NCBI RefSeq assembly: GCF_025698965.1
Contig: NZ_JAILWL010000007.1
Span: 1 to 35,476 of the forward strand
Length of the DNA stretch: 35,476 nt
Direction: 5' to 3'
Origin: Roseibium sp.
Lineage (GTDB): Bacteria > Pseudomonadota > Alphaproteobacteria > Rhizobiales > Stappiaceae
The notes below the pieces were generated by a model. It had not been told where the DNA came from. It saw nothing but the letters and a program-made list of their open reading frames with translations, and ran no database searches. The stretch's first letter is position 1; each line of letters begins with the position of its first letter. Below, one piece after another: positions 24,546 to 29,232 of the stretch. The position numbers and the translations under genes are program-made.

Positions 24546-24581
24546 CCGCGTGCCCAAATTCGCACGTGCCCGAGGTCGTTC

Positions 24582-24599
24582 ATGGGGTGCCTTGTTTAA
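24582..24599 (+). CDS. Possible 5-codon leader peptide (MGCLV) in the decarboxylase leader
   Basis: ATG GGG TGC CTT GTT TAA is preceded by CGAGG at seven bases, a good Shine-Dalgarno arrangement. It lies just upstream of the nested stem. A translated short uORF could couple ribosome behaviour to folding of the leader, as short uORFs do in polyamine control elsewhere. Five codons can occur by chance, so confidence is low. Confidence 0.25.
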   Translation: MGCLV

Positions 24600-24968
24600 A
24601 GGACATCTCTTAAGGGGCCGCTGCCACATACACCGCCAAGGGGCGGGCAGCAGATCCGTACGGCTTAAAGCAACGACGTAAGAGGGCTTTTTTGGTCTCT
24701 GCCGGGGTATCCAACCTCCGGCGTCACTGAAGAGGCACTTGTTACATCCTTGCCCGACGTGCGGCTCGGTATTTCCGATCCAATCAACGGCATTTCCGAC
24801 GCGGGAAAGCGTTGCGCTGTTCGTCAGCTGCAATTGCCCAACCGTCGCTGCAGTCAACCCGGCCTCCGGTTCCATCCCGGGGGAGGCCCGGTGGGTATTG
24901 CAGCACCCTGCGACGTGAACCTGCAGCGCGCCTCATTGGCATAAGCGTGTATGCGGCCAGAATTGAGA

Positions 24969-24980
24969 GGGGAAATCCCC
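24969..24980 (+). promoter_or_regulatory. Hairpin occluding the decarboxylase ribosome binding site
   Basis: GGGG-AAAT-CCCC lies directly before the ATG, and the first G run is the Shine-Dalgarno sequence (GAGAGGGG). Formation of this stem would hide the ribosome binding site. Confidence 0.45.
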
Positions 24981-26111
24981 ATGAGCGAACGTATCCGCGA
25001 CTTCCTGCGACGACGCGACGACGATGGTCCCTGTGTTGTTGTCGATCTCGACATCGTGCGTGACAATTTCCAGGCATTTGCCAGGTCGCTGCCGGACACA
25101 TCCGTTTACTACGCGGTGAAAGCCAACCCGGCGCCGGAGATCCTGTCCCTTTTGGAGAGCCTCGGTTCGTCGTTTGACTGCGCTTCCGTCGGTGAAATTG
25201 AAATGGTTCTTGCGACAGGTGCTGCAGCCGATCGCATTTCCTACGGCAATACCATCAAGAAGGAGAAGGACATTGCGCGTGCCTTTGCATATGGCGTCCG
25301 GCTCTTTGCGGTCGACTGCGTCGAAGAAGTTGAAAAAATCGCCCGCGTCGCCCCGGGTGCAAAAGTCTTCTGCAGGGTCCTGTGCGACGGTGCCGGTGCC
25401 GAATGGCCGCTCTCCCGCAAATTCGGCTGCGATCCGGACATGGCGTCCGACGTCCTTGAACACGCCCATCGTCTCGGTCTTGTTGCCTACGGCGTCTCCT
25501 TCCATGTCGGCTCCCAGCAAGCCAACCTGCAAGCCTGGGATTTCGCTCTCGCCATGGCGTCCGACGTCTTCAAGGAAATGGCGCTGCGCGGCATCGAATT
25601 GAAAATGGTCAATATGGGTGGTGGGTTCCCGACCCGGTACCTGAAGGACATTCCCGGTGTGCCGAGTTACGGCGAGGCGATTTTTCATGCTCTGACCAAG
25701 CATTTCGGGAACCGGTTGCCATCCACAATCATTGAGCCGGGCCGCGGCATGGTCGGAAATGCGGGTGTTATCGAGGCGGAGGTTGTTCTGATCTCGAGAA
25801 AATCCGAGCAGGACGACGTGCGCTGGGTTTATCTCGATATCGGCAAATTTCATGGGCTGGCCGAGACCATGGACGAAGCGATCCGCTATCCGATCCGCAC
25901 GCCGAAAGACGGGGATGCGAAAACTCCCTGCGTGTTGGCCGGTCCGACTTGCGACAGCGTGGACGTGCTCTACGAAAAAACACCCTATGAGTTGCCGGTC
26001 AGTCTTTCGATTGGTGACAAGGTGCTGATCGAGGCCTGTGGTGCCTACACCACAACCTATTCCTCAGTTGGTTTTAACGGTTTCGCACCACTGGCGTCCT
26101 TCGTCATCTAG
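24981..26111 (+). CDS. Ornithine decarboxylase, fold type III PLP enzyme (376 aa)
   Basis: It converts L-ornithine to putrescine, the entry to polyamines; some alphaproteobacterial members also accept lysine. The protein is of the eukaryote-like alanine-racemase-fold group. YYAVKANP carries the PLP Lys47; CASVGEIE, SFHVGSQ, VNMGGGFPTRY and EPGRGMVG (phosphate binding) follow. GPTCDSVDVL holds the catalytic Cys324, and EACGAYTTTYSSVGFNGF closes the barrel site. The GPTCDS and GAYT motifs favour ornithine over diaminopimelate. Length is normal. The ATG at 24981 is used because the GGGG Shine-Dalgarno lies before it. A long structured leader precedes it, and GNAT and homospermidine synthase genes follow. 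Confidence 0.93.
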   Translation: MSERIRDFLRRRDDDGPCVVVDLDIVRDNFQAFARSLPDTSVYYAVKANPAPEILSLLESLGSSFDCASVGEIEMVLATGAAADRISYGNTIKKEKDIARAFAYGVRLFAVDCVEEVEKIARVAPGAKVFCRVLCDGAGAEWPLSRKFGCDPDMASDVLEHAHRLGLVAYGVSFHVGSQQANLQAWDFALAMASDVFKEMALRGIELKMVNMGGGFPTRYLKDIPGVPSYGEAIFHALTKHFGNRLPSTIIEPGRGMVGNAGVIEAEVVLISRKSEQDDVRWVYLDIGKFHGLAETMDEAIRYPIRTPKDGDAKTPCVLAGPTCDSVDVLYEKTPYELPVSLSIGDKVLIEACGAYTTTYSSVGFNGFAPLASFVI

Positions 26112-26122
26112 GAACCTGAACC

Positions 26123-26674
26123 ATGATCTCGATCGTTAACGAGGCGCCGGAGCATTTCGGCGCGCGTGAACTTTTGCTCGACCGGTGCTTTGGTGAGGAC
26201 CGGTTCGCAAAAACGTCGGAGCGGTTGCGCGAAGGCCGGTTGCCGGTATTCGCCTTTGCCGCTCTGAACGAGGCCGGCCTTCTGGCCGGGACGGTGCGGC
26301 TGTGGTCCGTGGCGGACCGCAACGGAACTCAAAGTCTGTTGCTCGGACCACTTGCCGTTGCCCCGGAGTGCCGGGGACGGCAAGTTGGCGATCGGCTTTT
26401 GCGCCATGCGCTCAACCAGGTTGCCGTCCATGGCCACGGGTCTGTGATCCTGGTCGGGGATCAGCGCTATTATACCCGCTTCGGATTCTCGGCGGGATTG
26501 TTGAACCGGATCACTCTTCCAGGGCCAGTCGCCCATGACCGTTTTCTGGGATTGGAAATCGTTTCCGGTCAATTGTCATTGCTGAGTGGAGAAATTTCAG
26601 CTGCTGGTGAGAAAGCAGCTTCGCAGTTCTTTTCACCCGCTCTGCAATCTTTGTTGCCGGACAAATGTGTCTGA
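26123..26674 (+). CDS. GNAT-family N-acetyltransferase (183 aa)
   Basis: This is a cytosolic acetyl-CoA-dependent acetyltransferase. The acetyl-CoA loop is LLLGPLAVAPECRGRQVGDRLLRHAL (about residues 71-96), with the RGRQVG variant of the Q/RxxGxG/A motif; VILVGDQRYYTRFGFSAG is the following conserved strand and helix of YhbS-type members. It begins 11 bases after the decarboxylase stop and so belongs to its operon. The substrate is unknown; a polyamine or an amino acid is suggested by neighbours only. The start follows AGGA. Confidence 0.88.
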   Translation: MISIVNEAPEHFGARELLLDRCFGEDRFAKTSERLREGRLPVFAFAALNEAGLLAGTVRLWSVADRNGTQSLLLGPLAVAPECRGRQVGDRLLRHALNQVAVHGHGSVILVGDQRYYTRFGFSAGLLNRITLPGPVAHDRFLGLEIVSGQLSLLSGEISAAGEKAASQFFSPALQSLLPDKCV

Positions 26675-26715: not shown

Positions 26716-26862
26716 AATTCTGTCGTAAACCGGTCACTGCTAATCGAAAGTGCATCTAGTGCGCTTCTGTGCATGGGGCGATTTCCAAAAGGGCTGCCTG
26801 AGAAATTTTTGACGTAGGCAGGCTTTCCGGCGATCGCTTAGCGAACGATTGGAGCCTGGAAC

Positions 26863-29232
26863 ATGACCGACGAAACCAGCGGCAGCGCGCCAAAGAAAAC
26901 AACCCGGAAAACTGCCCCGAAAAACACCCGAAAACCTGCCGCAAAGGCGGCTTCGTCCCAAAAACCCGCTGTCAAGGCTTCGACAAGCGCGAAGTCTGCT
27001 CCTGCAAAGCCAACAACCAAAGCTGCGGCGGCCAAGACCGCTGCAAGCAAATCGGCGGCAAGTAGATCTACCTCCGCATCCAAGCCGCCAGCAAAATCAT
27101 CAACGACGAAGAAACCGGCTGTTGCCTCAAAATCTGCAGCAAAGCCTGCTGCCGCGAAGTCATCTGGAAGTGCGAAAACAGGCACGGCCAAGCCTGCAAC
27201 CAAAGCAGCGGCATCCAAGACCGCAGCCAGCAAACCGGCAGCGAGCCGATCCGCCGCCGCATCCAGGCCTTCGGCAAAACCGGCGACATCAAGGAAACCG
27301 GCAACGAAATCCGCTGCGGCGAAAAAGCCAGCCGCTGTGAAACCAACTGCAAGCGCAAAAGCAGGCACGGCCAAGCCTGCAACCAAAGCAGCGGCATCTA
27401 GGACTGCAGCCAGCAAACCGGCAGCGAGCCGATCCGCCGCCGCATCCAGGCCTTCGGCAAAACCGGCGACATCAAGGAAACCGGCAACGAAATCCGCTGC
27501 GGCGAAAAAGCCAGCCGCTGTGAAACCAACTGCGACCAAACCTGCATCAAAGACGTCCGCTACAAAGACAGCGGCACCCGCTGTGACGAAGCCGACCGCC
27601 AGCAAACCGGCAGCGGTTAAAGCTGCTGCTGCTAAACCACCGGTCGGCAAATCAACTGCGAACAAACCTGTCGCCGCCCGATCGGCCTCAACAAAGCCTG
27701 CAGCAACGAAACCGGCGACTGTCGCTGCAGGTGCCCCGGCAAAAAAGGCGCTCGCACGCAAGCCTGTTGCCAGAAAGCCGGCCACCAGAGCAGCTGCTTC
27801 CTCGGTCAATTACCCAGTTCACGGCACTATCAGCGGACCGCTTGTCATGATCGGCCTTGGGTCCATCGGCAAAGGCACTCTGCCGTTGATCGAGCGTCAT
27901 TTCAAATTCGACAAGAGCCGCTTCACCGTGATCGACCCCGTCGACACGGACGCGAAACTGGTGAGAGACAAGGGCTACAGGTTTCAGAAAGTCGCGCTCA
28001 CTCCGGAAAACTATAAAAACATACTCACTCCGATTTTGAGCGCTGGGGAAGGGCAGGGTTTTGTCGTCAACCTGTCTGTCGACACCTCTTCGCTCGAACT
28101 GATGAAGCTGTGCCGTAAACTCGGCGTTCTCTATCTCGACACGGTCGTTGAACCTTGGCCGGGATTCTACTTCGACGAAAACGCCAGTGCAGCCGATCGT
28201 ACAAATTATGCGTTGCGTGAAACGGTACGCAAAGAAAAAGCCAGAAAGCCGGGCGGCACGACGGCTGTTTCCTGCTGTGGTGCCAATCCTGGCATGGTGT
28301 CCTGGCTGGTAAAAAAAGCGCTGGTGGATATTGCCGCCGACACCGGAACGAAATTCAAAGAGCCCAAAAACCGCAAGGGCTGGGCGAAGCTTATGAAGAA
28401 GACTGGTGTCAAAGGCATTCATATCGCCGAACGTGATACCCAGCGTGCCAAACAACCAAAGCCGCCAAATACCTTCTGGAACACCTGGTCGGTGGAAGGA
28501 TTCCTGTCAGAAGGCTTTCAACCGGCCGAACTTGGATGGGGAACGCACGAGGCCTGGAAACCGAAAAACGCCAAAAGCCACAAGAAAGGATGCAACGCGG
28601 CGATTTATATTGAGCAGCCTGGCGCAAATACCCGGGTAAGAAGCTGGTGCCCAACGCCTGGTGCGCAGTTCGGCTTCTTGGTGACACATAACGAGGCGAT
28701 TTCGATCGCCGACTATTTCACACTTGAGAACGGCAAGAAGGTTTCCTACCGGCCGACCTGCCACTATGCCTATCACCCGGCTGACGAAGCTGTGCTCTCG
28801 CTGGACGAGCTCTTCGGAGCCGCGGGGAAAGTGCAGAAGACACTGCATGTGCTGACCGAGGATGAAATTCGCGACGGAACAGACGAACTTGGCGTGTTTC
28901 TTTATGGTCACAAGAAGAATGCCTACTGGTATGGATCCCAGCTTTCGGTAGAGGAAACACGCAAACTTGCACCTAACCAGAACGCCACCGGTCTGCAGGT
29001 AAGTTCAGCGGTCATAGCTGGTATGGCCTGGGCTCTGGAGAACCCGGAAGCGGGGATCGTCGAAACAGACGAGATGGACTACAAGCGCTGCCTTGAAATC
29101 CAAATGCCGTATCTTGGTCCGGTCAAGGGGTATTATACGGATTGGACACCGCTCGACGGTCGCCCCGGTTTCTTCAAGGAAGACCTGGACAAGAATGATC
29201 CCTGGCAGTTCCGGAATATTCTGGTTCAGTAG
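26863..29232 (+). CDS. hss: Homospermidine synthase with histone H1-like N-terminal extension (789 aa)
   Basis: The C-terminal part (about residues 315-789, 475 aa) is a complete NAD-dependent homospermidine synthase, which makes homospermidine from putrescine. VNYPVHGTISGPLVMIGLGSIGKGTLPLIERHF is the Rossmann start; VNLSVDTSSLELMKLC, LYLDTVVEPWPGFYFD, GANPGMVSWLVKKALVD, NTWSVEGFLSEGFQPAELGWGTHE, WYGSQLSVEETR and a DPWQFRNILVQ end are family-typical. Ahead of it lie about 313 residues rich in Lys, Ala, Pro, Ser and Thr with almost no acidic residues, built from KPA-, KAA- and SKPA-type repeats and resembling histone H1-like tails. A 61-residue unit is tandemly duplicated inside it. GGAG precedes the ATG at 26863, and no other in-frame ATG lies between the tail and the core except one that would remove the NAD site. 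The frame is intact, so the tail appears translated. Confidence 0.93.
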   Translation: MTDETSGSAPKKTTRKTAPKNTRKPAAKAASSQKPAVKASTSAKSAPAKPTTKAAAAKTAASKSAASRSTSASKPPAKSSTTKKPAVASKSAAKPAAAKSSGSAKTGTAKPATKAAASKTAASKPAASRSAAASRPSAKPATSRKPATKSAAAKKPAAVKPTASAKAGTAKPATKAAASRTAASKPAASRSAAASRPSAKPATSRKPATKSAAAKKPAAVKPTATKPASKTSATKTAAPAVTKPTASKPAAVKAAAAKPPVGKSTANKPVAARSASTKPAATKPATVAAGAPAKKALARKPVARKPATRAAASSVNYPVHGTISGPLVMIGLGSIGKGTLPLIERHFKFDKSRFTVIDPVDTDAKLVRDKGYRFQKVALTPENYKNILTPILSAGEGQGFVVNLSVDTSSLELMKLCRKLGVLYLDTVVEPWPGFYFDENASAADRTNYALRETVRKEKARKPGGTTAVSCCGANPGMVSWLVKKALVDIAADTGTKFKEPKNRKGWAKLMKKTGVKGIHIAERDTQRAKQPKPPNTFWNTWSVEGFLSEGFQPAELGWGTHEAWKPKNAKSHKKGCNAAIYIEQPGANTRVRSWCPTPGAQFGFLVTHNEAISIADYFTLENGKKVSYRPTCHYAYHPADEAVLSLDELFGAAGKVQKTLHVLTEDEIRDGTDELGVFLYGHKKNAYWYGSQLSVEETRKLAPNQNATGLQVSSAVIAGMAWALENPEAGIVETDEMDYKRCLEIQMPYLGPVKGYYTDWTPLDGRPGFFKEDLDKNDPWQFRNILVQ
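27181..27533 (+). repeat. 183-bp in-frame tandem duplication within the histone-like tail
   Basis: Bases 27181-27363 and 27364-27533 are almost identical, with a period of exactly 183 bp (61 codons), so the frame is preserved. Copy two differs by a few substitutions near its start (ATCTAGGACT against ATCCAAGACC). High identity suggests a recent duplication and likely length variation among strains. Confidence 0.9.

Follow-up and report, generated by a model that had tools for sequence, protein, structure and literature searches.

Homospermidine synthase (HSS) joins two putrescines to homospermidine with the help of bound NAD, and polyamines, which act mainly through the binding of nucleic acids, are thought to be synthesized in solution. 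Why, then, should an HSS of Roseibium sp. be preceded by a long polycationic tail of the kind known from nucleic acid-binding proteins, and is such a tail a genuine part of the protein? In the present study, we addressed this question for the hss gene (26863-29232, + strand) in a stretch of 35,476 nucleotides, hereafter the window, of a 6.4 Mb genome. From the translation of the open reading frame and its matches to PDB and Pfam entries, the gene encodes an HSS of 789 aa with an N-terminal polycationic tail.

The synthase core, its tail and its neighbors

The preliminary description of this locus had proposed that one unbroken frame joins the tail to a synthase core of usual length starting near residue 315, and both points were borne out. 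The frame at 26863-29232 (+) runs from ATG to stop as a single frame of 789 aa without interruption, and residues 316-788 (27808-29229, +) align end to end with residues 5-477 of the Blastochloris viridis HSS (PDB 4plp; 746 bits, E 4e-223). Two Pfam domains that exceed their cut-offs, PF03435 at residues 328-469 (117.8 bits) and PF16653 at 473-756 (114.3 bits), represent the saccharopine-dehydrogenase NADP-binding and C-terminal domains and span the whole core, for which the NCBIfam profiles gave no match. All eight catalytic or substrate-binding residues that were checked are intact (D94, E117, N162, E210, W229, E237, H296, and E298 in B. viridis numbering); in HSS these positions include the ionic slide D94/E117, the amino sites, the cation-pi residue W229, and the Glu-His-Glu triad E237-H296-E298 (PMC8489232). 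Judging from this agreement, the core is an ordinary bacterial HSS and probably enzymatically active.

The 315 aa ahead of the core (26863-27807, +), recognized by composition, coil prediction, and genus-wide conservation, are made up largely of Lys, Ala, Pro, Ser, and Thr (K 56, R 14, A 103, P 36, S 45, T 37) and carry a net charge of +68. The claim that this long tail is nearly devoid of acidic residues holds, the total of D and E being two, both within the first four residues. Basic residues mostly follow one another at steps of 4-5 residues, with no K/R-free stretch longer than 10 residues, and 27 KP, 19 KPA, and 8 KPAA motifs are present. In the AlphaFold model, obtained from a shallow alignment of 24 sequences, the tail is coil throughout with a pLDDT of about 33; the mean pLDDT of the same model is 46.5, and the core too is poorly modelled, the alignment being too shallow. 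The prediction suggests that the tail would be intrinsically disordered in the cell.

By its length, its K/A/P-rich composition, its scarcity of acidic residues, its regular lysine spacing, and its predicted coil, the tail has the sequence features of the H1-like lysine-rich tails of AlgP, PhaF, and the TopA repeats. The designation "histone H1-like" in the preliminary description is thus upheld for composition; it does not extend to family membership, because the tail scored below the cut-offs of both the chlamydial HC2 profile PF07382 (29.9 bits vs. a gathering cut-off of 40) and NF038053 (22.7 bits vs. 80). In the freely accessible literature searched, we found no published HSS with such a tail, in agreement with the earlier remark that no described enzyme of this kind was known; the parts are already known, and the combination of HSS with a polycationic tail is new as far as this literature reaches.

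Upstream of hss lie an ornithine/lysine-type PLP decarboxylase gene for putrescine supply (odc, 24951-26111, +; PF02784 and PF00278), preceded by a speF leader RNA (24700-24848, +; Rfam RF00518, 42.2 bits, gathering threshold 37), and, between odc and hss, a GNAT acetyltransferase gene (26123-26674, +; PF13508 and PF00583). An Rfam ar45 sRNA match (24552-24691, 46.5 bits) was also observed immediately upstream of the speF leader. The odc gene was found near hss in all Stappiaceae loci checked, irrespective of tail length, and the GNAT gene likewise adjoins both long-tailed and short-tailed hss; in Rhizobiaceae and Phyllobacteriaceae, no odc was detected close to hss. An odc-hss link in "Stappia aggregata" has been mentioned in a paper whose text does not contain the term "N-terminal" (PMC13293326).

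Translation of the tail and selection on its charge

The full-length start has a Shine-Dalgarno sequence, GGAG (26851-26854, +), 8 nt upstream of the ATG at 26863. In nearly all relatives (T)GGAG stands before the initiation codon of MTDE/LTDE, which is ATG or, in three species and at the same position, TTG, and the N-terminal motif MTD[DE]..NGGAPKK (M/LTD[DE]..) is kept at any tail length. Further in-frame starts are the GTG codons at 27337, 27520, and 27583, none of them with a Shine-Dalgarno sequence, and the ATG at 27847, which encodes M329 in the NAD-binding fold, within its first strand; from residue 241 to M329 there is no in-frame ATG, GTG, or TTG. Because the alternative starts either lack a Shine-Dalgarno sequence or fall inside the fold, the tail is no artefact of annotation. 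A start codon downstream of the tail had been named beforehand as one observation that would speak against the fusion; none usable exists in the interval between tail and core, the far-upstream start is conserved, and a start-codon artefact is ruled out.

It could also be imagined that the tail, once made, is cleaved off in the cell, which would release an H1-like polypeptide and leave a normal HSS behind. The core does begin where tail-less HSS normally starts, but the junction bears no conserved cleavage motif and the last residues before the core vary between species, and we find this scenario hardly credible.

When the tail was shuffled 2000 times with base composition preserved at each codon position, the shuffled versions contained on average 23.6 D/E (minimum 11), 25.5 K/R (maximum 39), and 5 stops, vs. 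2, 70, and 0, respectively, in the actual tail. These shuffles, together with the dN/dS values, rule out an open frame arising by chance. Opposite the tail, the minus strand has an open frame of 323 codons as well (26838-27809, -); we rejected an antisense gene at this place, the open frame being a by-product of the codon make-up of the tail, with selection acting on the charge encoded in the plus frame.

Values of dN/dS, which are approximate and come from sequence pairs picked for alignability, were 0.14-0.61 for the tail vs. 0.02-0.08 for the core. Among 104 changes in the tail, only 2 involved acidic residues against 12.1 expected, a six-fold depletion (p 3e-4), and changes between basic and neutral residues were depleted two-fold (11 observed, 23 expected). 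From the conserved start, the lack of an internal one, dN/dS below 1, and the depletion of charge-changing substitutions, we conclude, as far as comparison of sequences can tell, that the tail is translated and under purifying selection, and that its charge is what is selected.

Distribution and stepwise growth of the tail

The search for Lys/Ala-rich N-terminal extensions of HSS that the preliminary description had suggested was carried through the whole genus. HSS was found in 36 of 45 Roseibium/Labrenzia genomes, and every one of the 36 encodes the tail, with lengths of 54-412 aa, one of the tails being truncated by a contig end, and net charges from +11 to +92. The other nine genomes, mostly smaller ones, yielded no HSS, which seems to have been lost there, tail included, or replaced. 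In sister genera of Stappiaceae 2-56 aa, often A/K/P-rich, precede the core, and in other families of Rhizobiales HSS starts 2-4 aa before it. On the core tree, tails of 54-110 aa occupy the early Roseibium branches, tails of 142-270 aa are found in most other Roseibium, and a supported clade of 12 species, including the present one, has tails of 259-412 aa; read in this way, the tree shows a clear stepwise lengthening of the tail.

How the lengthening may have proceeded is indicated by repeats. Throughout the tandem repeat rows of Roseibium tails, every reported period is divisible by three. In the present tail, a 183-nt unit of 61 codons (reference copy, 27141-27323, +) is preceded by a degenerate first copy (26958-27140, +; 63%) and followed by a second copy that is 92% identical (27324-27506, +); TRF reported 2 copies at 27164-27533 (96%). 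From the repeat analysis, the segment 27324-27506 is a recent in-frame tandem duplication. A short A/K/P-rich leader is the probable origin of the tail, part of whose growth came through duplications of this type.

Such growth brings to mind a tolerated low-complexity expansion, namely a leader of little function, neutral or almost so, that slippage and duplication lengthen. The spread of lengths from 54 to 412 aa within one genus, the recent 183-nt duplication, and a dN/dS several times that of the core would all suit this explanation. Retention in 36 of 36 HSS-bearing genomes, the depletion of acidic changes, the retention of basic residues, and dN/dS below 1 all speak against it, however, and we judge it unlikely.

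Outside the family, we read 32 HSS loci with longer open frames, drawn from the listed matches of a sample at order, class, and phylum level, and among these listed matches none had a K/A tail; as candidates for the same architecture they were rejected, most being GC-rich run-on frames and some being frames of a YihY protein running into HSS. The latter belong to one alphaproteobacterial family, in three genomes of which the frame of a membrane protein, which we take to be YihY/BrkB-like, runs without a stop into hss (open frames of 812-818 aa); a fourth locus in another genome of that family has a similar run-in that is cut by the contig end. A membrane-anchored HSS fusion is a possible reading of these frames, yet a Shine-Dalgarno sequence and an ATG are present at the HSS start as well. 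We also discarded a mobile origin of the tailed gene, as the sole phage match is an untailed HSS and no plasmid match to the core exceeds 73% identity. This phage sequence, in Achromobacter phage Motura (MN094788.1:74282-75535), is annotated as homospermidine synthase, is 35.6% identical, and gives no match to the tail.

Possible roles of the tail and comparison with known systems

In composition, lysine spacing, and conserved charge the tail matches the nucleic acid-binding tails of AlgP, PhaF, and TopA. On balance we favor the reading that this is an HSS to which a disordered polycationic tail has been added that tethers the enzyme to the nucleoid and/or RNA. Lysines evenly spaced, mostly every 4-5 residues, would bind phosphate backbones non-specifically, as in the three proteins named; the tail would keep HSS on the nucleoid and/or RNA; and homospermidine would be produced at the site where it is used as a counter-ion. 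The binding of polyanions is predicted here from the chemistry of the tail, and its localization and physiological benefit are what we infer from such binding. Since the substrates of HSS are small molecules, tethering to DNA would answer no obvious catalytic need. Further points against this reading are the scores below both H1-like cut-offs, the nine genomes of the genus in which no HSS was found, and the almost eight-fold spread of tail length within Roseibium at low sequence identity, which speaks for the absence of strong constraint on any precise function.

Polyphosphate, rather than nucleic acid, could be the main partner, so that the tail would place HSS on polyphosphate granules and polyamines would neutralize the chain. 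In Pseudomonas AlgP associates with these granules and its KPAA tail is required for their spacing (PMC9239181), polyamines co-assemble with polyphosphate in engineered Citrobacter (PMC12874136), and the HSS tail contains 27 KP and 19 KPA motifs. On the other hand, neither ppk nor other polyphosphate genes were seen among the window ORFs scanned, and a similar tail occurs in the same genome on TopA, a DNA enzyme, which makes polyphosphate improbable to us as the main partner, though it is a serious alternative and may be bound in addition to nucleic acid.

We see an equally slim chance that the tail is a feedback sensor that mimics polyamine. Phosphate sites, or the ionic slide (Asp94, Glu117) at the substrate pocket, would then be contested between the tail and free homospermidine and putrescine, and tethering or auto-inhibition would track the polyamine level; such release by polyamine or auto-inhibition could also refine the tethering proposed above. 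Cationic amines are indeed bound by the HSS pocket, of which an acidic ionic slide forms part (PMC8489232), the Roseibium HSS retains D94 and E117, and selection holds the tail basic; but no sequence motif or conserved spacing indicates a specific docking site, and polyamine control is probably exerted already upstream, via the speF leader of odc. A far less probable thought is self-modification, which suggests itself because the HSS reaction transfers the aminobutyl group of putrescine onto an amine and the tail is rich in lysine: tail lysines might accept the group and become N-epsilon-(4-aminobutyl)lysine (deoxyhypusine). If true, this would create a polyamine-decorated nucleic acid-binding tail, a bacterial analogue of the silaffin-type polyamine lysines.

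Returning to tethering, we know of no earlier case of local polyamine production, and if the tail binds polyanions, Roseibium would provide the first known one, genus-wide. The graded tails of culturable species (none, about 50, 200, and 400 aa) constitute a natural experiment, and this length series bears on the origin and the function of disordered polycationic tails.

Among known systems, BvHSS (PDB 4plp/4tvb) and PaHSS (6y87) share with the Roseibium enzyme the whole catalytic core at full length and all eight checked residues, but lack the tail, whereas 315 aa stand ahead of the core in Roseibium. The chlamydial HC2 (PF07382) and the Burkholderia-type H1-like protein (NF038053) resemble the tail in composition and through the weak profile matches, but are free-standing nucleoproteins, while the HSS tail is fused to an enzyme. 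The phasin PhaF of Pseudomonas putida has a disordered lysine-rich DNA-binding tail as well, by which a metabolic component is held at the nucleoid (PMC3574117), although its partner is the PHA granule and that of the HSS tail a polyamine enzyme. AlgP of Pseudomonas aeruginosa likewise has a long K/P/A-rich disordered tail with KPA(A) motifs, and its KPAA repeats bind DNA (PMC9239181); in AlgP, however, 25 perfect KPAA repeats lie C-terminal to a helical N-terminal domain (PMC9239181), whereas the 8 of HSS are N-terminal and on an enzyme. In a different Roseibium species, a long tail of KPAAK repeats forms the end of the protein encoded by a 419-codon open frame.

The genome studied here encodes a TopA with a C-terminal K/A-rich tail of roughly 45 aa, similar in kind to the HSS tail, and TopA of other Roseibium species has a K/A-rich end of similar kind, much shorter than the HSS tail. 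Across the genus, the HC2 profile matched mainly HSS tails and frames of roughly 900 aa, three of which were read and are TopA by sequence; profile searches for K/A-rich proteins missed the genome's own TopA tail and are therefore not exhaustive. TopA with lysine repeats, as in actinobacteria and Caulobacter, is like the Roseibium HSS an enzyme with an H1-like K/A-rich tail, and in Streptomyces these repeats stabilize the enzyme-DNA complex and confer processivity (PMC7398561). The difference is that TopA acts on DNA itself and has a far shorter tail, at the C-terminus, whereas the tail of HSS is N-terminal.
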